A program made the position numbers and the translations under genes. Below are positions 34,761 to 51,109 of a DNA stretch of 64,000 nucleotides, one piece after another. The DNA lies in the NCBI GenBank assembly GCA_002694685.1, contig NZMW01000001.1, positions 248,001 to 312,000 on the forward strand, in the 5' to 3' direction. Below the pieces are notes generated by a model. The model worked only from the letters and a program-made list of their open reading frames with translations, had not been told where the DNA came from and ran no database searches. Every line of letters starts with the position of its first letter. Within the stretch, counting starts at the first letter, position 1. This DNA is from Balneola sp. GTDB taxonomy: Bacteria > Bacteroidota > Rhodothermia > Balneolales > Balneolaceae.

Positions 34761-35321
34761 TCAATTAGTAGCCACTTCTGCTTTAGGTATAAAATCCAAT
34801 GCTGCTGTATTCATGCAATATCTTAAACCAGTAGGGTTAGGGCCATCATCAAAAACATGACCTAGGTGACTTCCACAATTCGAGCATACGATTTCAGTTC
34901 GAGTCATAAACATACTATTATCAGGTTTTTCACCTACAAGAGAGTCTGCTAAAGGTTTCCAAAAGCTTGGCCAGCCTGTTCCACTATCATACTTGTGTTC
35001 GGAGCTGTATAGCTTTTGCCCACAACCTCCGCATACATAAATACCATCTTCCTTTAAGTCGTGATATTCGTTGACATACGGAAATTCAGTACCTTTTTCT
35101 CTAAGGATTCTATATTCCTTAGAAGTGAGAATTGACTTCCATTCTGTCTCCGTTCTTTGAAAAGGATACTCGCCTTCTTTAAGAGTATCTTGAACAGCTA
35201 TGCTTTCTATAGCTACCGATGTGTCCTCATCGTGAACGTGGGTAGAAGGTTTATTTCCAGCAAACAAAAGTAACAGAGCAAGAGCCGTTAGCAAAGCACC
35301 AAATATAGCTGCATATTTCAT
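34761..35321 (-). CDS. msrB: Exported peptide-methionine (R)-S-oxide reductase
   Basis: Reduces methionine-R-sulfoxide in oxidised proteins. The 186-residue protein has a hydrophobic N-terminus (AAIFGALLTALALLLLFAG) that acts as a signal peptide or anchor, placing it in the periplasm. The domain (about 55-180) shows two structural zinc pairs (CGGC and CSNC), GTGWPSFWKPL and the catalytic RYCMNTAALDF. RYCxN is intact, though Ile is Met and Ser is Thr relative to the common RYCINSAAL. A transcript terminator lies just downstream. Confidence 0.93.
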   Translation of the reverse strand: MKYAAIFGALLTALALLLLFAGNKPSTHVHDEDTSVAIESIAVQDTLKEGEYPFQRTETEWKSILTSKEYRILREKGTEFPYVNEYHDLKEDGIYVCGGCGQKLYSSEHKYDSGTGWPSFWKPLADSLVGEKPDNSMFMTRTEIVCSNCGSHLGHVFDDGPNPTGLRYCMNTAALDFIPKAEVATN

Positions 35322-35434: not shown

Positions 35435-36922
35435 TTAATCCCAATTAATGTCCCAGTTTTGAAAGGAGTCCTTCAATGCAGGAACAGTCTTTTGCTTGAA
35501 CAGCCTTACACCGGCTGTAAACCCAACCCAGAATCTATACTGCCTGCCTTTCCTGTCTGGCGACCAAATGCTATACCAGGTATAGTCCGCAGCTCCAGGA
35601 ACTCTTGTAACTTGTGCATTAAATGTAGGTCCACCATAAAGGGAAAAGCCGCTTCCGAATCTTTTACCAACTAAGAATTTGTAGGAGTAAATGAGGTTTA
35701 GTTTAGACGACCATTTTTCTTCAAACTGATGTGTGAGCGAAAATTCCTGATTTACATACATGGTTTCATTGCTCCAGTTTTCGAAGGAATCACTGATCTT
35801 TTTTTCAAGCCCAACGGCTAAACCTACCCGATAAACATCTCTGTCTAATAAAGTATTATATCCAAAAATTGCAGTGTTATATACTCTGTAGGTACCTGAT
35901 GTAAACCCAAAGTCAGTAAACCCAGCATCTGAGAATCTCATATCCACATTTTGACGTCCGTTGCCATATATACTAAATAAGCCAATCGGGACACCTTCAA
36001 ATTCTTGTGCAATATTGATAAGGCCAACTTGCACTCCGGTAGATTTTTGAGAAGCATTTAAAACACCTGCAAACTGAAGTCCGGTTAGGTTGTTCCCAAT
36101 ATTTGCAACACCCGCAGCAGCAAGACCTTCAACATTATTAGCAATATTTAAAAGCCCGGCAGCGAAAAGACCGCTAGCGTCTTCTAGTGCAATATTTACA
36201 CCACCTGTTGCCATAAGTCCTTCAATATTTCCAAAAGCTACATTAGCTGCTCCGGCTGCTTGTAGTCCTGAGATATCAGAACCAGCAAAATTCAGTACAC
36301 TTGCTGCCTGTAATCCTTCGACGTTGTTACGAGCAATATTTGCAACCCCTGCAGCTTGCAAACCTGAAATGTCTCCCCAAGCTGCGTTAACAATACCTGC
36401 TCCTTGCAGACCTTCAATATCATCTTTAGCAATATTGCCAATACCTGCAAACTGTAGTCCGCTTGAATTGTTACCTGCTATGTTGAAAAGTCCTGCAGCT
36501 TGGATTCCCTCTAGATCTTCACCAGCAATATTACCAAACCCGGCAACTTGAATTCCTGACATATCACCTTTAGAAATATTAGCACCTCCTGCAACATTAA
36601 ACCCTGCTATATTCCCCCCAGAAGCGTTTGCAAGACCGGCTATTTGGAATCCATTCGAATAGAATTTGGTGTAGTTTACTAATCCTCCTATTTCTAAACC
36701 ATCTAAGCCACCATGATAACCACCTATAATGTTTATGGAATAACGCGCAGTGTACTCCGGTGCTTTTATGCCATTGGTACTAAGAGGAGGGAAGAGGGTT
36801 ACTCTCCATTTTCTATATTTAAGTTCTTCTTCACTGATGTCATCGTAGTCTTGAGCAACTACTGAGCCGGATAAAACAGCAATGGTAACAAGGAAAGTCA
36901 GAAAAGATAAAAGTCGCTTCAT
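35435..36922 (-). CDS. Surface protein with fifteen 14-16-residue GLQxAGxxN repeats
   Basis: A 495-residue exported protein with a signal peptide ending near VVAQ (about 21-24). From residue 75 to 309 it consists of 15 tandem units of the form GLQxAGxxNIAxxxxx. The first eleven are 16 residues, then three of 15 and a last of 14. Gly and Ala/Asn recur at fixed positions, fitting a right-handed parallel beta-helix or solenoid. The remaining 185 residues are aromatic-rich amphipathic strands (ESFENWSNETMYVNQEF, then GFSLYGGPTFNAQV) that look like an outer-membrane beta-barrel. It resembles LA_2272-type surface repeat proteins; function unknown. Confidence 0.82.
   Translation of the reverse strand: MKRLLSFLTFLVTIAVLSGSVVAQDYDDISEEELKYRKWRVTLFPPLSTNGIKAPEYTARYSINIIGGYHGGLDGLEIGGLVNYTKFYSNGFQIAGLANASGGNIAGFNVAGGANISKGDMSGIQVAGFGNIAGEDLEGIQAAGLFNIAGNNSSGLQFAGIGNIAKDDIEGLQGAGIVNAAWGDISGLQAAGVANIARNNVEGLQAASVLNFAGSDISGLQAAGAANVAFGNIEGLMATGGVNIALEDASGLFAAGLLNIANNVEGLAAAGVANIGNNLTGLQFAGVLNASQKSTGVQVGLINIAQEFEGVPIGLFSIYGNGRQNVDMRFSDAGFTDFGFTSGTYRVYNTAIFGYNTLLDRDVYRVGLAVGLEKKISDSFENWSNETMYVNQEFSLTHQFEEKWSSKLNLIYSYKFLVGKRFGSGFSLYGGPTFNAQVTRVPGAADYTWYSIWSPDRKGRQYRFWVGFTAGVRLFKQKTVPALKDSFQNWDINWD
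35996..36700 (-). repeat. Protein-coding tandem repeat array (15 units, about 48 bp each)
   Basis: DNA region encoding residues 75-309 of the surface repeat protein. The protein unit is conserved while third positions drift, so the array is old and under protein-level selection rather than freshly expanded. Its low-complexity coding produces a long open frame on the opposite strand (36090-36551) that is not a gene. Confidence 0.85.
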
Positions 36923-37008: not shown

Positions 37009-37539
37009 TCAGACAGCCGCAGGTTTAAGATTTGAGAATTGTTCATCAAGCGTTTCATTCCAATATTTAACCTGATCTATTTTGCGAAGTAACTCCTCAT
37101 ATTCGCCTTCTATAGCGATTGACTCTATTTGATCTCCTTGGGATATATCATTTACGATTTGCTGATCTGAATCAGACTCAACTTCTCCAAAAACGGCATG
37201 CTTCCCATCTAGCCATGGTGTTTCAACGTGGGTAATAAAAAACTGACTTCCGTTTGTGTCAGGTCCGGCATTAGCCATGGAAAGTTTGCCGGGTTCGTTA
37301 TGTATAAGTTCTTCATGGAATTCGTCTTCAAAGCGGTATCCCGGACCGCCTCTTCCATCTCCATTCGGGCACCCGCCTTGAACCATGAAATTATCTATAA
37401 CACGGTGAAATTTTAAATTATCGAAGAACCCTCTAGTTGCAAGGTTTACAAAATTAGCGACCGTTTTTGGAGCACGTTCTGAAAATAGTTGTACGTTAAT
37501 TTCGCCTTTTGATGTGTGTATAGTTGCTTTCAAGCTCAT
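37009..37539 (-). CDS. Cyclophilin-type peptidyl-prolyl isomerase
   Basis: A cytoplasmic 176-residue cyclophilin that catalyses cis-trans isomerisation of Xaa-Pro bonds. It has the short bacterial core ([20 protein letters not shown], then GSQFFITH and [11 protein letters not shown]), with active-site R in HRVI, Q in GSQFF and H in DGKHAVFG. The frame can be extended to a TTG at 37644, but that would overlap the upstream gene by 95 bp and add a non-family N-terminus; ATG at 37539 ([12 protein letters not shown]) is right. A C-terminal helical extension after residue 150 is unusual but small. Confidence 0.9.
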
Positions 37540-37549
37540 AACAGTAATA

Positions 37550-38149
37550 TTAAATTGAAAATTTGAGAAATAAGAAGTTTGAATCCAGACCCGGATTCTG
37601 CGACCCGGTTTCTGCGTTTGAAATATGATGAAATTTATATCCAAACGAGATCATTCCAAAAGAGCTAAACTTTAAATCCGCACCTAAAGTTATGTCGAAA
37701 GTGAAATTAAGCTTTTTGGCGTTATCGGTAGGAAACTCATTCTCCATATAAACAAAGCCACCAGATGTTTTTATAAAAGGAGAAAGTTTTTTAGGATTAG
37801 CCTGCGTAAGTGAGAACCCAAAAGGTGAAACACCGAATCCTCTTCTAGTAGCTATCCTATTTCCATCATCTTTTTTAGGATACAAGAAATGGATATAAGG
37901 TATGAAGTCTACGGTGTACCAAAGTATTTTACCATTTCCATATTCTTTAATCTCTTTTTGGTAGCCAAGAGATAAAATTTGTGTTTCGGAATTTTCAGTC
38001 TTCCCTAAAAACTTAACCGAGTTGAAAGAATAGCCTCCTAAGAAATAGAACATCTCCCTGGGATCCTGCTTCTGGGCAAGCGAGTCATTCAAATTCATAA
38101 AAGAAAAAAGAAATAATGCAGAGAAAAATAGTAACGCCTTAAACTTCAA
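37550..38149 (-). CDS. PagL-like acyloxyacyl hydrolase (lipid A 3-O-deacylase family)
   Basis: A 199-residue outer-membrane beta-barrel candidate with a signal peptide ending about SLAQ (23-26) and alternating amphipathic strands. The C-terminal motif [20 protein letters not shown] matches the PagL signature, giving candidate catalytic H175 and S177, with D189 at the position of the PagL glutamate. PagL removes the 3-position acyl chain from lipid A. Only TTG (38149) gives a complete signal peptide, so a TTG start is proposed. It lies 10 bp before the cyclophilin on the same strand. Confidence 0.78.
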
Positions 38150-42691: not shown

Positions 42692-42747
42692 AAGGGGCTT
42701 TTAAAACTCTATGCTTTTCTTATTATGTGCCTCAGAATAAAGGCACT

Positions 42748-45700
42748 ATGTTCAATATTTATCAATCACATTCATTACGGCTTCTATCTAATCACTTGTC
42801 AGAAATCTTTGCACCTGATAGTGCAAATCCGCTGACTCAGCAATGGGTGATAGTTCAGAATAATGAGATTAAAGAATGGCTTTCCCTACAGTTAGCCAAG
42901 GATCAGGGTATTGCCGGGAATCTGAAGTTTATATTTCCATCGGAGTTCATATGGCTTCTCTATCGGCTTAAACATGATGAGGTGCCTAAAGTACTTCCCA
43001 GTGACCTTCAGGCTATGCAGTGGGCTATTTTTAAGCAGCTGACAACTAACGCTGCATTATTGAAGCAACTGCCTTCTTTTGGAAATACTGAAGGCGACAG
43101 CAAACGGCTATTTCAGCTAAGTAATCAGTTGGCTGATAATTTTGATCAATATCAGGTTTATAGACCCGATATGATGGAGAATTGGGTTCATGGGAAACTT
43201 GCTACCAAGCATAAAGATGAAAAGTGGCAGCTATCTATCTGGCGAAGTTTGAATCAAGCTTGGAACCAATCGGAAAAAACAAGAGATATCCCCAGAAGAT
43301 CACAAGCTTATGCCGAGCTACTGAATTGGTTGCAAGACCCTGATAACGAAATTTGGGATCATATCCCCAAGCAATTGTATGTTTTTGGGCTTTCACAAAC
43401 TTCAAAGCCCTTTCTGGAAGTGATTTCTAATCTTTCCTCCCAAATCGAGCTTCAATACTTCACTAAATCTGTTCAGGATGTTCAACCACATTCAGAAATT
43501 GAAAACCTTGTTTTAAACTGGAGCAAGCCGGCATCTGAACAATTGAATTTATTAAAAAGCATTTTGAATAATGCTCAATTGCCTTTTTCGCAGGAAGAAC
43601 TATTGGCAAGTGAAAGAAATGTATTACCTGAGATAGCAATTCATTCCTGTCATAATAATCGCAGGGAAGTGGAGGTATTGAAGAATGAAATCCTAAGCTT
43701 TCTTGATGAACATCATGATGCCAAGGCTAGCGATATACTCGCTATGGTGCCAGATGCAGAAGAGTATGCTGGTATTTTGGAAACCGTATTTAACGAGGAA
43801 GAACCAGTTTTGCCGGTTTCTCAACTTTCTGGAAAGAACTACCAATCAGCAGAATACACGATTTCGGAACTTCTTGAGCTCTTAAGTTCATCATTCAAAG
43901 CCACCGCAGTTTTACAGTTACTCAACCTCGAGCCTGTTAAATCGAAATTTAAACTTACCGATGACCATCTAGACTTATTGGAAGATTGGATACTCGTCAA
44001 TAGAGTTCATCGCTCGTTAGGCGAAGAATTCAACGAGCAGTATAGCTGGCGAAAAGGGTTAAACCAACTGATTTCAGGGTTTATGATGCAATCAGGTTCC
44101 CTGGGAGTATATAACGGGTTGGTTCCTTTTGGTGAATTATCGTCCTCTGATGATGCTGAACTAACAGCTAATTTTTCACAATTCATTCACGCGTTAAAGG
44201 ACGCTAAGAATAGATCAGAATCGAGTAAAACTCCCTCAGAATGGATTGAATTTACAGAGTCATTAGTAGATACTTTTGTAGGTCAATCAGATGGTAAAGA
44301 AGCTGCTAGCGCTTCACTAAGGAAGTTACTTGATAAGCTTCGTCGGCAAATGGAGTTCACAGAGGAGAACCCAAAAGTTAATTTTGACCTTATTAAAGAT
44401 TGGCTTACTTCACAGCTAAAGTCTCATGATTCAAGTTCCGGACGTTTTGGTCAGGGAGTAACGGTAAGTTCCTACATCCCATATCGTTCAGTCCCGTTTA
44501 AATTTATCGCGATGTTGGGCATTAATGAGGGTGTTTTTCCAAGAAAGGCAGTTCGGCCTGAATTCGATCTCATCTATGCCCAGCCGAAACCAGGTGACCG
44601 AATCTTGAAAGAAGACGATTCCTATTTATTTCTGGAAACCCTGCAGGCTGCTGAGACTCATCTACACCTAAGCTATAAGGGGCAAGATCAGCGGTCTGAT
44701 TCGGAGCGATTACCTTCCATTTTGATTCAGCAATTACTCGATACAAAGGGAGAGGAAGGGAAGGGAATTATTCGCCATAGTTTACATCCATTCAATAAAA
44801 AATATTTTGATGGAAAGGGGTTGAAGTCTTACTCGGATTCTAACCTCAATCTCGCCCAAAAAATGCAGTTGGAGAGTCAGGATCATCCTATCCTTTTTAC
44901 AGATGGAGCATGGAGCTCAGATTCACATAACACAACTGATATAGTTCATATATCAGATATAATAAATTATTTCAGTCATCCTTCTAAGTATCTATTGCAG
45001 AATGAATTAAACATTAAGAATTATAACTCATTTAATGAAGTTATTGATCGAGAGCAGTTTAAATTGCAGGGCTTAGATCGGTATAAACTGGACGACTATT
45101 TATTCGATGCACTGGCAAATGATCACCCCATAAACCAAGTATTTAACTTTGCATCAGCTGCTGCTTTAATTCCCCAAAAACTTCAAGGGAAGAAGTCATT
45201 TCAAGTCGAAAAAGAGAATATTCAAGAGTTAGTAAACAGCCTGGAGAATCTGACAAACGAAGAGGAGCGTAAGGAAGATATTCGTATAAATTTTGAAGGA
45301 GCAGAGATTCTTGGAATCATCAACGGAATTTATGACGACGTATTGGTTACCTATCGTGTTGGCAAACGAAGGGAGAAGCATGAGGTTGGCCACTGGTTAA
45401 AACATCTTTTACTGTTGAGTAATGGAACTCCGATTACCAAAAGTATATTCCTCTCGAAAGATGATGATAGTGTTGATATCCTTGAAATACCTTCAGAGAA
45501 TATTTATAAAAATCCTCTTAATGACTATTTAAAGTGGTTTTTCTCAAATGAGCCAATATTAAACAAAGCAGCTTTTTTTCCTGCCTCATCCCAATCCTTT
45601 GCAAAAACCTTTTCAGATGGCAGCGATCTGGAAAAGGCAAAATCCAAAGCCGAATCTCAATGGCAGGTGACAAAATTTAATCAATACGGAGAGTCCGGAG

Positions 45701-45819
45701 ATTATTTCAATGCTTTACTCTGGCGGGGTTATAATCCTATAGAGATCGAAGCTTTCCAGCAAAAGGGTCTTCGCTTTTGGGTTCCATTTTTAGAGGCAAT
45801 AGGCGGAGATGGAGCATGA
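42748..45819 (+). CDS. recC: Exodeoxyribonuclease V subunit gamma (RecC)
   Basis: A 1023-residue subunit of RecBCD, the non-catalytic helicase-like scaffold that recognises Chi in E. coli. The start MFNIYQSHSLRLLSNHL aligns with the RecC N-terminus, so ATG 42748 is preferred over the GTG at 42727. Typical RecC blocks are WVIVQNNEIKEWLSLQLA, IHSCHNNRREVEVLKNEI and FKFIAMLGINEGVFPRK. Length is slightly below E. coli RecC (1122). It is the first gene of recC-recB-recD and overlaps recB by 4 bp (ATGA). Whether the Chi-recognition residues are conserved cannot be judged by eye. Confidence 0.92.
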   Translation: MFNIYQSHSLRLLSNHLSEIFAPDSANPLTQQWVIVQNNEIKEWLSLQLAKDQGIAGNLKFIFPSEFIWLLYRLKHDEVPKVLPSDLQAMQWAIFKQLTTNAALLKQLPSFGNTEGDSKRLFQLSNQLADNFDQYQVYRPDMMENWVHGKLATKHKDEKWQLSIWRSLNQAWNQSEKTRDIPRRSQAYAELLNWLQDPDNEIWDHIPKQLYVFGLSQTSKPFLEVISNLSSQIELQYFTKSVQDVQPHSEIENLVLNWSKPASEQLNLLKSILNNAQLPFSQEELLASERNVLPEIAIHSCHNNRREVEVLKNEILSFLDEHHDAKASDILAMVPDAEEYAGILETVFNEEEPVLPVSQLSGKNYQSAEYTISELLELLSSSFKATAVLQLLNLEPVKSKFKLTDDHLDLLEDWILVNRVHRSLGEEFNEQYSWRKGLNQLISGFMMQSGSLGVYNGLVPFGELSSSDDAELTANFSQFIHALKDAKNRSESSKTPSEWIEFTESLVDTFVGQSDGKEAASASLRKLLDKLRRQMEFTEENPKVNFDLIKDWLTSQLKSHDSSSGRFGQGVTVSSYIPYRSVPFKFIAMLGINEGVFPRKAVRPEFDLIYAQPKPGDRILKEDDSYLFLETLQAAETHLHLSYKGQDQRSDSERLPSILIQQLLDTKGEEGKGIIRHSLHPFNKKYFDGKGLKSYSDSNLNLAQKMQLESQDHPILFTDGAWSSDSHNTTDIVHISDIINYFSHPSKYLLQNELNIKNYNSFNEVIDREQFKLQGLDRYKLDDYLFDALANDHPINQVFNFASAAALIPQKLQGKKSFQVEKENIQELVNSLENLTNEEERKEDIRINFEGAEILGIINGIYDDVLVTYRVGKRREKHEVGHWLKHLLLLSNGTPITKSIFLSKDDDSVDILEIPSENIYKNPLNDYLKWFFSNEPILNKAAFFPASSQSFAKTFSDGSDLEKAKSKAESQWQVTKFNQYGESGDYFNALLWRGYNPIEIEAFQQKGLRFWVPFLEAIGGDGA

Positions 45820-48800
45820 GTAGACCTTTAGACGTATTTGATGCTCCTCTGTCGGGAATAAGCCTTGTAGAGGCAAGTGCGGGCACGGGTAAGACCTTCA
45901 ATATTACTTCATTATATGTGAGGGCGGTTTTGGAGAAGGGATTAGATCCATCCCAAATCCTTGTAATGACCTACACGGAAGCGGCTACCGCAGAGCTGAA
46001 GCTTCGTTTGAGAAACAGATTAAAGGAATCATTAAATGCGGTTGAGTCAGGGGAGCCCGGAAAAGATCCCTTTCTAAAAAAGCTCCTGCAAAAAGATTAT
46101 CCGGAAGCATCATCAAGGCTGCGTAACGCTGTTGACTTGTTCGATGAGGCTGCCGTATTCACGATTCATGGGTTTTGTAGTCGTATTCTCACAGAATTTA
46201 GCTTACAGTTCGGTGTTTCTCCAGATTTTGAGCTGTTGACGGATGAATCGGAGCTCCTTCAGGATTGTGTAGATGATTACTGGCGAAATTTCACTGTAGA
46301 AGCTGAGGATGATCCACAGGCTTACATTATTCTGGATTATTTAACGGATGAAGGCTTTGGACCCGATGAACTAAAAGCGATAGTTAGTGAAATTGTTAAT
46401 CGGCCTAATACATCTCTGGTTCCCGAGAAACCAACAAAGGAAGAGCTATTTTCACTTTTGGATGATTGGAGGTCAAAGTTTGAAGAAGCAAAGGCTACCT
46501 GGGTACAAGAGAAAGAAGCATTTGAAGATGTTTACTTTAATGGTGATTTAGATGGGAATGCATTCAGAAAATCAAAACGACAGCCCGATTGGGAGATACT
46601 GCAAAGCTGGCTAAAGCAAGCAAAGCCGTCTATCTCTATTTCTGATCGATTATCACGTTTCGGAAGCTATATGGAAGACCGGGGCAGTAAGAAATCCTAC
46701 CAAGTTCCGCACTTTGATTTTTTTGGAATTGTCGATGAATTTATTGCTATAACAGAGCAATTAAAGATGCTGAAACCCATCTTCATCAAGGAGGCAGCGA
46801 AAGAAATAAAGAGACAGTTTGAAGCTGAAAAGGAATCAGGTAACCTGCTTTCTTACAATGATTTGTTAGAAGTAGTTGAATCAGGCATAAGAAGTAATAG
46901 TGATAATAAATTAGGTGCTAAACTTTCAGAAAATTACCCACTGGCTTTAGTGGATGAGTTTCAGGATACAGATCCTACACAGTATAGCATCTTCCGCCAA
47001 ATGTATGAAGGAAGGGAGAATGCGGCTTTGTTTATGATCGGTGATCCTAAGCAGGCTATTTATGGTTTTAGAGGAGCGGATATATTCACGTATCTGGATG
47101 CCAAAAAGGATGCCGATGATTCACAGTCTTATACTTTGAGCAATAATTTCCGGTCCAATAAGCGGATGATTGAGGGTGTTAATGAGTTCTATACGATTTC
47201 TGATAACCCATTTCTATTTGATGGGCTCACCTTTAATTCCGCTCATTTCCCTGATGAAAAATCTGATGACCAATATATATTAGATAATAAGGGCAACTTG
47301 GTAAACCCCATGCAGATCGTTGCTTTCGACAATGAAGAGTCCGGTTCAAAAGATGCTTTTAAAGATCAGCTGTATGATGCGGTGTGTGGTGAAGTTTTAG
47401 AGCTATTGTCTGGAGAGTATTCAATTAATGATCGGAGTGTTGCAGAGAAGGACATTGCGATTTTAGTGCGCAAAGGATTTGAAGGAGAAGAGATTCAAGC
47501 CAGACTTCGCGATAAAGGGCTTAAAAGTGTATTGAAGTCCCGGAGTAGTGTTTTTGAGTCAAAAGAAGCCGATGAGCTATTTTTGATATTAAAGGCCATT
47601 CAAAAGATAAGTTATGAACCTGGAGTAAGAGCTGCTTTAGCAACGGAATTGCTTGGTTTTAACGCTCAGAAACTATACGAATTATTGGATGATGAGCCTG
47701 AATGGTCCGCGATTATTCAGAAATTTGTTGAGCTCAAACAAGTATGGGAGAAGAGAGGGATTGAATCTTCGATAGAACAATTGCTTTCTGTTTTTGATGT
47801 GCAGGAATCATTAGCCTTACAAAAAGATGCAGAACGTAGAATCACCAACTTGATGCATTTATCGGAGCTCTTGGCTAAGGCAGAGCGAGAGTTTCGTATT
47901 GAGGGAAAGGCGCTACTAAAGTGGTTCTATCAAAAGATGAATAAGTCTGGTACAGAATCCGATGATGAACAGCTGCGACTGGAAAGTGACGAGAACCTGA
48001 TACAAATTTCAACTATACATGCGGCAAAAGGGTTGCAGTACCCAATTGTTTTGTGTCCATTTTTATGGGATTCTGGAGCTGCTAAGAAAAAGAACGATCT
48101 CCTCAAATTTCACAAAGAAGGCGAAAACTTCATTGACATCAGTGCGGGAATTACTCACCCAAAAAGAGAAGAATTTTCTGATTTAGCCGAAGATCAGGAA
48201 AAGGCAGAGGAGGTTAGGCTGACATATGTTGCTCTAACCCGTTCGGTTTCTGCTTGTTATATTTTCCTGCCAGACTATAAAAAAATGGATGACTCAGCGT
48301 TGGCGAGTATCATAGCTGGTTTTAGGAATGATCAAAAAGCAGATTATGGATTCATCAAGAGTCGGCTTAATGAATGTGAGTACATTGAAGTGAGGAAGCC
48401 TTCAGAAACTCCAAAGAATTCAACCCCAAAAGAAAAAAGTCCAAAAGCAGAAACTTTAAAAGCGGGAGAATTTAAACGAAAAGACGCGCTTTTATACCCA
48501 AGAATGCTTAGCTATTCTTCATTAGCAGAAGGCAAAGAACATGGAGAAGTTGGCCGTGACTATGACGAGCTATTTACCTCCCAAAAAGAAGAAACTGTTG
48601 AGTTCAATAAATATGGGTTTCCCAAAGGAGCCGGGGCCGGAACTTGCTTGCATAACATATTCGAAGATATTCGGTTTGATAATCCCAAGAAGCTGGAACA
48701 AGTAATCGGTGATAATCTGGATTATTACGGGTTTGAATCTATTTGGCAAGAACCCGTTAAAAAGTGGGTCAAAAATGCATTAAGCCATAATCTTGGTGAT

Positions 48801-49307
48801 CCTAAGTTATCCCTTTCTGCCTTGAAAGAATCCGAAGTTCTGAAAGAAATGGAGTTCTTTTTTCCGGTTGAGGGTATTGATGCTCAGGAGCTGTGGAAGT
48901 TCATTAGAACAAATGAACCCGATTCATCAATTTCTCAATCTCTTAGCGGGTTTATGAAGGGCTTCATTGATTTGACCTTCTGTTATAGAGGCAAGTATTA
49001 TATACTGGATTACAAATCGAATCACCTGGGGCATGAGGCTTCTGACTATGATTCTCCTAAACTTGCTCAGGCGGTTACTGATGCTGGATATGACCTTCAG
49101 TACCATATTTACACACTAGCTCTCCACCGCTTTCTTAGAAACAGAATTAAGGGTTATGAATATGATCAACACTTTGGTGGGGTCTTGTATTTATTTTTAA
49201 GAGGAGTAGAAGTGACCCAGCCGGGAAGTGGAGTCTTTTTCGACCGTCCAGATAAGAAGCTTATTGATAAGATGGACCGATATTTCAGTACAGGGAGGGT
49301 AGAATGA
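45816..49307 (+). CDS. recB: Exodeoxyribonuclease V subunit beta (RecB helicase-nuclease)
   Basis: A 1163-residue helicase and nuclease. The N-terminal SF1 helicase carries Walker A EASAGTGKTFNIT (19-31), TYTEAATAELKLRLR, Walker B LVDEFQDTDPTQY and GDPKQAIYGFRGAD. Helicase motifs V/VI (TIHAAKGLQYPIVL and YVALTRS) follow. The C-terminal nuclease domain has TCLHNIFED (the metal His) and YILDYKSNHLG with the catalytic Asp and Lys. The start ATG at 45816 overlaps the recC stop; a TTG at 45777 would add an unlikely extension. Confidence 0.95.
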   Translation: MSRPLDVFDAPLSGISLVEASAGTGKTFNITSLYVRAVLEKGLDPSQILVMTYTEAATAELKLRLRNRLKESLNAVESGEPGKDPFLKKLLQKDYPEASSRLRNAVDLFDEAAVFTIHGFCSRILTEFSLQFGVSPDFELLTDESELLQDCVDDYWRNFTVEAEDDPQAYIILDYLTDEGFGPDELKAIVSEIVNRPNTSLVPEKPTKEELFSLLDDWRSKFEEAKATWVQEKEAFEDVYFNGDLDGNAFRKSKRQPDWEILQSWLKQAKPSISISDRLSRFGSYMEDRGSKKSYQVPHFDFFGIVDEFIAITEQLKMLKPIFIKEAAKEIKRQFEAEKESGNLLSYNDLLEVVESGIRSNSDNKLGAKLSENYPLALVDEFQDTDPTQYSIFRQMYEGRENAALFMIGDPKQAIYGFRGADIFTYLDAKKDADDSQSYTLSNNFRSNKRMIEGVNEFYTISDNPFLFDGLTFNSAHFPDEKSDDQYILDNKGNLVNPMQIVAFDNEESGSKDAFKDQLYDAVCGEVLELLSGEYSINDRSVAEKDIAILVRKGFEGEEIQARLRDKGLKSVLKSRSSVFESKEADELFLILKAIQKISYEPGVRAALATELLGFNAQKLYELLDDEPEWSAIIQKFVELKQVWEKRGIESSIEQLLSVFDVQESLALQKDAERRITNLMHLSELLAKAEREFRIEGKALLKWFYQKMNKSGTESDDEQLRLESDENLIQISTIHAAKGLQYPIVLCPFLWDSGAAKKKNDLLKFHKEGENFIDISAGITHPKREEFSDLAEDQEKAEEVRLTYVALTRSVSACYIFLPDYKKMDDSALASIIAGFRNDQKADYGFIKSRLNECEYIEVRKPSETPKNSTPKEKSPKAETLKAGEFKRKDALLYPRMLSYSSLAEGKEHGEVGRDYDELFTSQKEETVEFNKYGFPKGAGAGTCLHNIFEDIRFDNPKKLEQVIGDNLDYYGFESIWQEPVKKWVKNALSHNLGDPKLSLSALKESEVLKEMEFFFPVEGIDAQELWKFIRTNEPDSSISQSLSGFMKGFIDLTFCYRGKYYILDYKSNHLGHEASDYDSPKLAQAVTDAGYDLQYHIYTLALHRFLRNRIKGYEYDQHFGGVLYLFLRGVEVTQPGSGVFFDRPDKKLIDKMDRYFSTGRVE

Positions 49308-51109
49308 GCGTACTGACCAGACTTGAAGATTTGCGTGAAAAAGAAGTGATTTCGGCTGTAGAAGTCGAATTTGTTCGTTTTCTATTGGAAATACACCCGT
49401 CGGTTCAGGATGATGTGCTTTGGGCTGCGGCTGCTTGTATTTACGCTCAAAAGAATGGTCACGTCTGCCTTGATTTTGCTAATTGGGATGATGAATGGCT
49501 ATTCAATGACAAGAAATCGAACCTAAAACTCACCGATTCCATTAAGAAACAATGGATTACATCTTTGGCAGAGTGTCCTATTGTAAGCGATGGAAAAGAA
49601 TTACAACCTCTGATTCTAGAATCAAGTCGATTATATCTGCATCGATTTTGGAGTTTTGAAGGAGAATTATGTGACTGGCTGAATCATAAATCTTCCAAAA
49701 CGAACCAAATTTCTGAGATAGAGAAAAAGGTCATGCAATCTCTACTCAATCCTACAGAAGATCTTTTTGAAACCAATTGGCAGCATATAGCAGTTCAGCT
49801 TAGCTTTTTGAAGGATATTGTGGTCGTTTCCGGAGGACCAGGAACAGGCAAAACATTCACGGTTCTAAATATTATCGCAGCACACCTGTTATCCAAACCT
49901 GAAGGAGATTTCAGAATTGCTTTAGCTGCTCCGACCGGAAAAGCTGCACGAAGGCTGGCAGAATCTCTCGAAGCTGGCAAAAATAACTTACCTGATAAAA
50001 TGCAGGGTGAAGTACAGATTCCGGATTCAGCCCAAACAGTTCACAAATTACTAGGGTCAGATTTTAGGGGAGCCTCATTTTCATTCAACGAAGAAAACCC
50101 ACTCCCATACGACCTTGTGATCATTGACGAAGCTTCTATGCTGGATATGAACATGTGGGTTCGCCTGATTCGCGCGATTGGTTCAAATACTAAGCTGATT
50201 GTGTTGGGAGATAAAGATCAGTTGGCCTCTGTTGAAGCAGGTTCTATTCTGGGGGATATTTGCGGGGGTGATAACTCTTTCTCAGACAGGATAGCTAAAT
50301 CAATTAGCCAAATTCAGGGAACAAATATACCTATTGTTAAGGATCAGCCTTCAATAAATGATTGTATTGTCTTTTTAACAAAAAGCTACCGCTTCGGAGA
50401 AAACAGTGGAATCCAAAAATTTGCTGCTGCTGTAAATGAGTCCAATCCCGATTTAGCTATAAAGATACTTCAGGATTCCAACCTTACCGACCTGAACTGG
50501 CTGGAGCCGACAAGTGAAAATATGGAAACTATAGTCCGAGACTATGCGGTAAACCACCACGCTGAGTTCCAAAAGAAGCCTCAGGATCAACGCCTGAGTG
50601 CATCAAACAAAAAGAAAATATTATGTGCTCTTAGAAAAGGCCCTTTTGGAGTTGAACAAGTAAACGGGAAAGTAGAGAGTATCATTAAAAGGAAGCATAA
50701 TATATTAGCCGGAAGAATCTGGTATGAAGGCAGAATTGTGATGGCTACCCGAAACGATGCTTTACTACGAATTAGAAATGGGGATATTGGAATTTATACG
50801 GATAAAGAAAACGGAGTTATAGAATTTGAAGGAGAGGAAGGGCAAAGTCTTTCAGCGAATCGTCTTAAAGATTACGAACCAGCATTTGCTATTACGATAC
50901 ACAAAAGTCAGGGCTCGGAGTTTGACGAAGTAGCAGTAATTCTTTCAAATCGAGTAAATTCAGTGCTTTCGAAAGAGATTCTTTATACTGCTGTAACAAG
51001 AGCCCGTAAAAACACTCTTATCATTGTAAATGAAGATGTTTTACGTAAAACAATACTTAGATCTGTATCAAGAAGAAGTGGTCTGAAGGAAAAAATTTGG
51101 GGTCCTTAG
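49304..51109 (+). CDS. recD: Exodeoxyribonuclease V subunit alpha (RecD helicase)
   Basis: A 601-residue 5-to-3-prime SF1B helicase completing RecBCD. An N-terminal interface domain precedes Walker A VVSGGPGTGKTFTV, motif Ia AAPTGKAARRLAES, Walker B VIIDEASMLDM, GDKDQLASVEAGSILGDI, AITIHKSQGSEFDEV and YTAVTRARK. It is the RecD form within a recBCD operon, not the stand-alone RecD2. ATG overlaps the recB stop by 4 bp, so the three subunits are coupled for stoichiometric synthesis. Confidence 0.95.
   Translation: MSVLTRLEDLREKEVISAVEVEFVRFLLEIHPSVQDDVLWAAAACIYAQKNGHVCLDFANWDDEWLFNDKKSNLKLTDSIKKQWITSLAECPIVSDGKELQPLILESSRLYLHRFWSFEGELCDWLNHKSSKTNQISEIEKKVMQSLLNPTEDLFETNWQHIAVQLSFLKDIVVVSGGPGTGKTFTVLNIIAAHLLSKPEGDFRIALAAPTGKAARRLAESLEAGKNNLPDKMQGEVQIPDSAQTVHKLLGSDFRGASFSFNEENPLPYDLVIIDEASMLDMNMWVRLIRAIGSNTKLIVLGDKDQLASVEAGSILGDICGGDNSFSDRIAKSISQIQGTNIPIVKDQPSINDCIVFLTKSYRFGENSGIQKFAAAVNESNPDLAIKILQDSNLTDLNWLEPTSENMETIVRDYAVNHHAEFQKKPQDQRLSASNKKKILCALRKGPFGVEQVNGKVESIIKRKHNILAGRIWYEGRIVMATRNDALLRIRNGDIGIYTDKENGVIEFEGEEGQSLSANRLKDYEPAFAITIHKSQGSEFDEVAVILSNRVNSVLSKEILYTAVTRARKNTLIIVNEDVLRKTILRSVSRRSGLKEKIWGP

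Follow-up and report, generated by a model that had tools for sequence, protein, structure and literature searches.

The 495-residue protein encoded at 35435..36922 on the minus strand of the window (the whole 64,000-nucleotide stretch of Balneola sp. DNA analysed here) contains a repeat array whose units shorten in two separate steps immediately before a predicted outer-membrane barrel, and this shortening is retained in most relatives. The array is predicted to fold as a β-solenoid that most likely forms a periplasmic arm, by topology inference. Related proteins in the Bacteroidota carry an extra STN domain in front of the solenoid and look like cell-surface-signalling transducers, judging from their domains and adjacent FecR genes. 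The parts of the protein and the two flanking genes are as follows.

35435..36922, minus strand: whole gene of the solenoid–barrel protein, an open reading frame of 495 amino acids
36854..36922, minus strand: signal peptide, residues 1–23, with a helix at 2–20 in the model and a cleavage site judged by eye
36701..36826, minus strand: conserved N-terminal cap, residues 33–74, with a major-residue fraction of 0.75 in 32 sequences, and predicted strands and a short helix
36173..36700, minus strand: units 1–11 of the repeat parse, 16 residues each, residues 75–250
36038..36172, minus strand: units 12–14, 15 residues each, residues 251–295, with the loop one residue shorter
35996..36037, minus strand: unit 15, 14 residues, residues 296–309, with the core one residue shorter
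35957..35995, minus strand: terminal short coil leading into the barrel, residues 310–322, from the model, conservation and the parse
35501..35956, minus strand: predicted eight-stranded outer-membrane barrel, residues 323–474, from the model, structure matches and the face test
35438..35500, minus strand: C-terminal tail, residues 475–495, from the model and its weak conservation
34761..35321, minus strand: SelR/MsrB-type methionine sulfoxide reductase gene, context only
37009..37644, minus strand: cyclophilin-type peptidyl-prolyl isomerase gene, context only

Neither the protein itself nor alignment A5, used as query, turned up a second copy of the gene in its own genome, and 60 of 92 Balneolaceae genomes, the source genome included, contain a match to the protein. 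Judged from the closest relatives that bear a name, the source organism is near Gracilimonas within the Balneolaceae. Of the 20 closest loci (L064–L083), 17 have cyclophilin, MsrB and bacterial-PH-domain genes flanking the solenoid gene. Two genes upstream lies a barrel of the PagL-type lipid A deacylase family (PF09411; 37550–38149, minus strand), which is also found near the solenoid gene in several relatives. Elsewhere in the window, RecC-, UvrD/RecB- and RecD-like genes stand consecutively at 42727–51109 on the plus strand. The Pfam scan of the window protein returned no families, and a PDB sequence search gave no relative at E ≤ 10.

Starting from residue 75, the protein parses into 15 units, of which the first 11 have 16 residues, the next three 15 and the last 14. 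The 15 in-phase units of the preliminary description are therefore exact, and the barrel-like domain placed after them is predicted; a 16th short coil, GVPIGLFSIYGNG, at residues 310–322 had not been counted. The parser was designed on this protein and favours 4- or 5-residue loops, and its score of 252.5 compares with a best value of 67 among 200 shuffles of the same residues. There are 5460 possible orders of the 15 unit lengths, and only one of them is non-increasing. The step from 16 to 15 residues at unit 12 shortens the loop between cores from five to four residues, whereas the step from 15 to 14 at unit 15 shortens the core itself from 11 residues (GLQxAGxxNxA) to 10 (GLQxGLxNxA). The graded single-residue taper proposed earlier is thus real as a shortening, and is conserved in relatives, but it consists of two separate, uncoupled steps in loop and core and not of a smooth loss of residues. 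An antisense open reading frame of 153 residues (36090–36551, plus strand) also spans the repeat array and is probably a mere by-product of the repeat codons.

The whole protein was modelled with AlphaFold2 from 66 sequences (mean pLDDT 92.2, pTM 0.77), a method that can overrate its confidence on tandem repeats. In the model, a regular β-solenoid occupies residues ~33–322 and runs straight into the barrel. The mean pLDDT of 10-residue blocks is 93–98 over residues 51 to 320, and the structure prediction called for by the preliminary description thus gives a regular solenoid free of irregular coil. Modelling of the solenoid alone produces the same fold pattern (pLDDT 93.9, pTM 0.84). The interior 16-residue units are each built from a strand of 7–8 residues, a turn, a strand of four and a second turn, while the 15- and 14-residue units are modelled as unbroken strands of 12–14 residues and a turn of two residues, as though the shortened loop had been absorbed into the sheet. 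The stretch around unit 1 likewise has long strands although this unit is 16 residues long, so strand length is not simply set by unit length. The pattern is independent of the barrel, since it is present in the solenoid-only model.

We compared the predicted solenoid with 49 chains using VIA-align. The closest superpositions in RMSD are with 6n2c (3.0 Å for 194 residues, Z 12.1), 4i84 (3.4 Å for 171 residues, Z 9.6) and 4phb (2.9 Å for 154 residues, Z 7.9), all of which we take to be right-handed helices. Left-handed entries among the 49 chains deviate by 9.5–11.7 Å, and the modelled β-solenoid is probably right-handed. A left-handed β-helix was considered and set aside as less likely: its Z scores are high (18.9 for ydcK and ~12–13.5 for GlmU/LpxD), yet the RMSD values of 9.7–11.7 Å indicate that these scores probably reflect shared periodicity only. 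Foldseek gave no match at E ≤ 0.001 for either the whole model or the solenoid model, the best E value of the latter being 1.1.

The C-terminal domain is a predicted OmpA-type eight-stranded outer-membrane barrel. Eight strands are modelled in residues 323–474, and the C-terminal part (~320–477) superposes with known eight-stranded outer-membrane barrels, namely OprF (4rlc; Z 13.7, RMSD 3.0 over 123 residues), NspA (1p4t; Z 12.9) and OmpA (1qjp; Z 11.8). The two faces of the strands differ in hydrophobicity, with weak alternation in strands 2, 3 and 6, and a difference as high was reached in two of 5000 shuffles. An outer-membrane barrel with an even number of strands has both of its ends on the periplasmic side. 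Thus, the N-terminal side of an eight-stranded barrel, and hence the solenoid, should face the periplasm. With both ends placed in the periplasm, the inter-strand gaps sum to 36 residues outside (3, 6, 7 and 20) and 18 inside (3, 12 and 3), a further but weak hint for a periplasmic solenoid. In known systems, the STN domain acts in the periplasm, according to the part of PMC11637429 consulted, and in relatives this domain stands in front of the solenoid. The strand number and the STN position together make a periplasmic arm the most likely form of the solenoid. The cap between stalk and outer-membrane barrel suggested by the preliminary description fits as a solenoid-to-barrel cap, since the taper is conserved and the barrel follows directly; the surface stalk is probably wrong.

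To follow the taper across relatives, we counted unit lengths in 91 of 92 distinct proteins, which derive from 138 loci after 46 had been dropped for identical last 250 residues; one protein was dropped for having too few parsed units. Six of the 91 fall outside the three groups compared, in which the last four units are shorter on average than the middle ones in 31/31, 30/30 and 22/24 proteins (83 of 85), the two exceptions being Bacteroidota-group arrays. The last unit has 14 residues with a ten-residue core in 80 of the 91, and the number of 16-residue units varies from 2 to 14. Counted from the array end, positions −1 to −4 hold mostly short units, and position −5 is a 16-residue unit in 79/91. 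The arrays of Balneolota-type proteins end in 15-15-15-14, 15-15-14-14 or 15-14-14-14; the two shortening steps fall at different units in relatives and are therefore separate. In some relatives, 15-residue units also open the array, which is then widest mid-way, and this partly accounts for a permutation test of C-terminal shortening falling below 0.01 in only 43/91 proteins. Among 24 further solenoid open reading frames, five of which have a parsed array too short to count, shortening was found in 18 of the 19 countable arrays. The bias is common to proteins with 24–38% identity to the window protein. As the preliminary description had asked, unit lengths were thus compared in relatives, and most show the trend; the conservation of the taper gives weight to the observation in the single array. 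The taper appears dispensable for some members, since all ten units of L197:4374-5447 have 15 residues and the array does not taper, which makes it a possible natural control, and the units of L061, which belongs to the window protein's own family, are nearly uniform.

Conservation of residues follows the same layout. In alignment A1 (32 Balneolaceae-type sequences), the terminal coil and link have a major-residue fraction of 0.79 and the N-terminal cap one of 0.75, compared with 0.63 in the barrel and 0.51 in coils 3–11. For 68 Balneolota-type proteins, the terminal coil shows 0.65 identity within its position and ≤ 0.35 between positions, and the unit before it 0.62 within and ≤ 0.50 between, while interior units resemble those at other positions almost as closely as their counterparts at the same position. 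In 21 other proteins, the terminal coil is weakly position-specific (0.40 within versus 0.34 between). A cap motif (TNG ... S-N---GGY[HN]GG) is common to the window-type and Bacteroidota forms.

The gene context of relatives was taken from a genome contig search that gave 75 loci recruited by patterns from alignment A1, which is not a random sample. Fifty are Balneolota-type (L064–L113, most labelled Balneolaceae or Balneolales), and the 25 others (L114–L138) are mostly Bacteroidota. In 20 of these 25, a solenoid–barrel protein is extended at its N-terminus by an STN/carboxypeptidase-regulatory-like region, and in this first set a FecR-type gene lies directly upstream of all 20 STN-bearing genes, with an ECF sigma gene just before FecR on the same strand in 16. 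When 246 genomes from the phylum were searched, 44 had matches, Balneolaceae-like ones included. Nineteen further regions, hand-picked as 13 with new frames of at least 550 residues plus six others, contain 13 STN-type genes, with FecR upstream in 13/13 and sigma in 12/13. Over both sets, FecR is directly upstream in 33/33 STN-type genes and ECF sigma in 28/33; these counts include near-copies or single-genus loci (five Mucilaginibacter; L123/L124), and the sigma, FecR and STN HMMs were built partly from loci that they later scored. Pfam recognized FecR in 13/13 proteins scanned, ECF sigma in 4/4, and STN at E ≤ 0.01 in 9/10 proteins (above the cut-off in 4/10). At E ≤ 0.01, Pfam detected neither a TonB plug nor a TonB barrel in the 18 STN-type proteins scanned, which are 8 of the 10 proteins of one scan and all 10 of another, and the same method did recognize plug and barrel in a neighbour, L121:8575-10905. 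This gene, which follows an STN-less sister gene, encodes a TonB-dependent receptor that includes a carboxypeptidase-regulatory-like domain.

Such STN-less sisters of the solenoid–barrel type lie within ~0.9 kb downstream of the STN-bearing gene in six of the 25 loci (L116, L118, L120, L121, L125 and L135) and nearby in four of the nineteen further regions (upstream of the sigma gene in L181, and downstream in L183, L187 and L188). The STN-bearing gene and its sister may work as a pair.

L121:7236-8468, L120:6851-8158, L125:6370-7536, L135:4842-6029, L183:3004-4182, L187:5735-6964, L188:5805-6941: STN-less solenoid–barrel sisters, downstream of STN genes

The flanks fetched for the 50 Balneolota-type loci (L064–L113), in part truncated by contig ends, contain no sigma, FecR or STN match. 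The window protein likewise has no STN, as the Pfam scan found no family and the signal peptide is followed by the cap, and no FecR or ECF sigma gene adjoins its gene; the three FecR matches of the genome lie elsewhere. In a tree of the barrel region, 23 Balneolota-type sequences split from 19 others (18 Bacteroidota and L061), and the STN label takes five changes; the tree holds 42 of 53 sequences, the terminal motif having not been found in the 11 dropped, five of which are STN-bearing.

We propose that the eight-stranded C-terminal barrel would hold a rigid, probably right-handed solenoid that hangs into the periplasm, with ~17 rungs and a length of ~8 nm if each rung adds 4.8 Å. Where this solenoid meets the barrel, its short C-terminal units of fixed length would act as a structural adapter for docking; this cap-to-barrel reading of the taper is likely. 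The interior 16-residue units would serve as a spacer of drifting number, and the conserved N-terminal cap as the functional tip. In the Bacteroidota relatives, the tip would bear the STN domain, mostly together with a carboxypeptidase-regulatory-like domain. Since genes for FecR and, in most cases, an ECF sigma factor lie beside that of the STN-tipped protein, the arm of these relatives most likely signals to FecR from the outer membrane, as FecA-type proteins do, although no TonB-dependent barrel would take part. The window protein, which lacks STN, most likely touches another periplasmic partner through its bare cap, and a signalling role for it is only a possibility. Taken as a whole, from barrel-held arm, adapter, spacer and tip to FecR signalling in the STN-bearing relatives, we consider this explanation fairly probable. 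A more specific version is tentative, and we would call it possible without leaning towards it: a TonB-independent signalling system of ECF sigma, FecR, an STN–solenoid–barrel transducer and sometimes a sister, with the window protein as a free-standing STN-less reporter of outer-membrane state that acts through its tip and whose reach is set by coil number.

The taper could also have no structural job, if the last units were old fixed copies and duplication and loss took place among interior units only. The near-equal likeness of interior units between and within positions agrees with such a history, as do their varying number and the untapered array of L197. However, the steps are uncoupled between relatives yet confined to the last units, and the bias extends to proteins at 24–38% identity; we regard a taper of this kind as unlikely, though it keeps some weight. 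Another way to read the terminal units is as membrane hairpins, so that one repeat would give solenoid coils mid-array and barrel strands at the end. The unbroken strands of 12–14 residues with two-residue turns would suit this role, but the barrel matches span about 305–477 with eight strands, the long strands persist in the solenoid-only model and neither strand face is lipid-like throughout (by eye), which makes hairpins very improbable.

Two further alternatives would place the solenoid outside the cell. The order of an N-terminal β-helix and a C-terminal barrel is similar to that of autotransporters, and the solenoid could be a passenger exported through the barrel. The classical autotransporter translocator barrel has twelve strands. 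The model has eight and contains no helical linker between solenoid and barrel, and no Pfam family is present in the window protein, so that passenger export is scarcely credible. A surface stalk, in which the barrel carries the solenoid outside for adhesion or binding, has in its favour the NCBIfam name of the family, 'surface repeat-containing', and a 2008 computational survey that, in the part consulted, puts leptospiral LA2272 among the outer-membrane/extracellular candidates (PMC2387172). Against it, eight strands place both barrel ends in the periplasm, the AlphaFold2 model has no linker between the solenoid and strand 1, and STN precedes the solenoid in relatives. We therefore find a stalk improbable; the surface location proposed in the preliminary description is not supported, and the barrel and the STN position point to the periplasm instead.

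The trimming of repeat length, in an order that is kept on the approach to the membrane barrel, is a natural example of a solenoid adapted to a different fold, and is useful to repeat-protein design. An unexplained 'surface repeat' also gains a testable role through its STN-bearing relatives, which have the look of sensors in the outer membrane with an output to FecR and ECF sigma factors and no need of a TonB-dependent transporter. We consider this signalling context of the relatives a more interesting result than the taper itself.

The barrel fold of the window protein is shared with OmpA-, NspA- and OprF-type barrels. The extension of OmpA is a C-terminal peptidoglycan-binding domain, whereas the extension of the window protein is N-terminal to the barrel and a solenoid. 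The repeat motif is shared with the LA_2272 family (NF047436), which is named after a Leptospira protein. The window protein matches this family at 27.8 bits against a cut-off of 25, which bears out the likeness to leptospiral GLQ-AG-N repeats claimed in the preliminary description; the six-frame genome scan scored 21.1 bits, below the cut-off, and in alignment A2 the family is matched by 56 of 66 sequences at E ≤ 0.001. The family model covers only a repeat stretch of 30 positions, and the best stretch here is 280–307, in the 15- and 14-residue units; the eight-stranded barrel, the taper and the STN forms lie outside it. Elsewhere in the source genome, a 579-residue frame has a weak repeat match to the same family below the cut-off (G000:C14:33777-33821). 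The entry 1dab corresponds to pertactin. The LA2272 protein is given a fold match to 1dab in the part of PMC2387172 consulted. The VC2662 family (NF047437) matches 43/66 members of A2 and gave no match to the window protein at E ≤ 1. It was rejected as a clue to function: removal of VC2662 left the phenotype of an ompU mutant similar, and the portion of PMC10865864 consulted yields no function.

Signalling of the FecA/FoxA type uses an ECF sigma factor, a FecR-type anti-sigma factor and an STN signalling domain, as described in the part of PMC11637429 consulted. The relatives resemble these TonB-dependent transducers in having STN, mostly a carboxypeptidase-regulatory-like domain, and FecR and usually ECF sigma genes alongside. 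They differ in having a solenoid and an eight-stranded barrel in place of the TonB plug and barrel, and the window protein also differs in lacking STN. Among the matches listed in searches of the open-licence PMC literature, no title or abstract opening describes an STN–solenoid–barrel transducer. The Dma family of Bacteroides also bridges the periplasm between an outer-membrane barrel and an ECF sigma factor, with anti-sigma domain, membrane helix, disordered tether and barrel all parts of one polypeptide (PMC13088901). The window protein is not Dma-like, since it starts with a signal peptide and has no Pfam match for an anti-sigma domain. In the STN-bearing relatives, FecR has a gene of its own instead, and the arm is predicted to be a rigid solenoid. 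With these differences, Dma appears to be the nearest working analogue that we have seen of a barrel linked to an ECF sigma factor.
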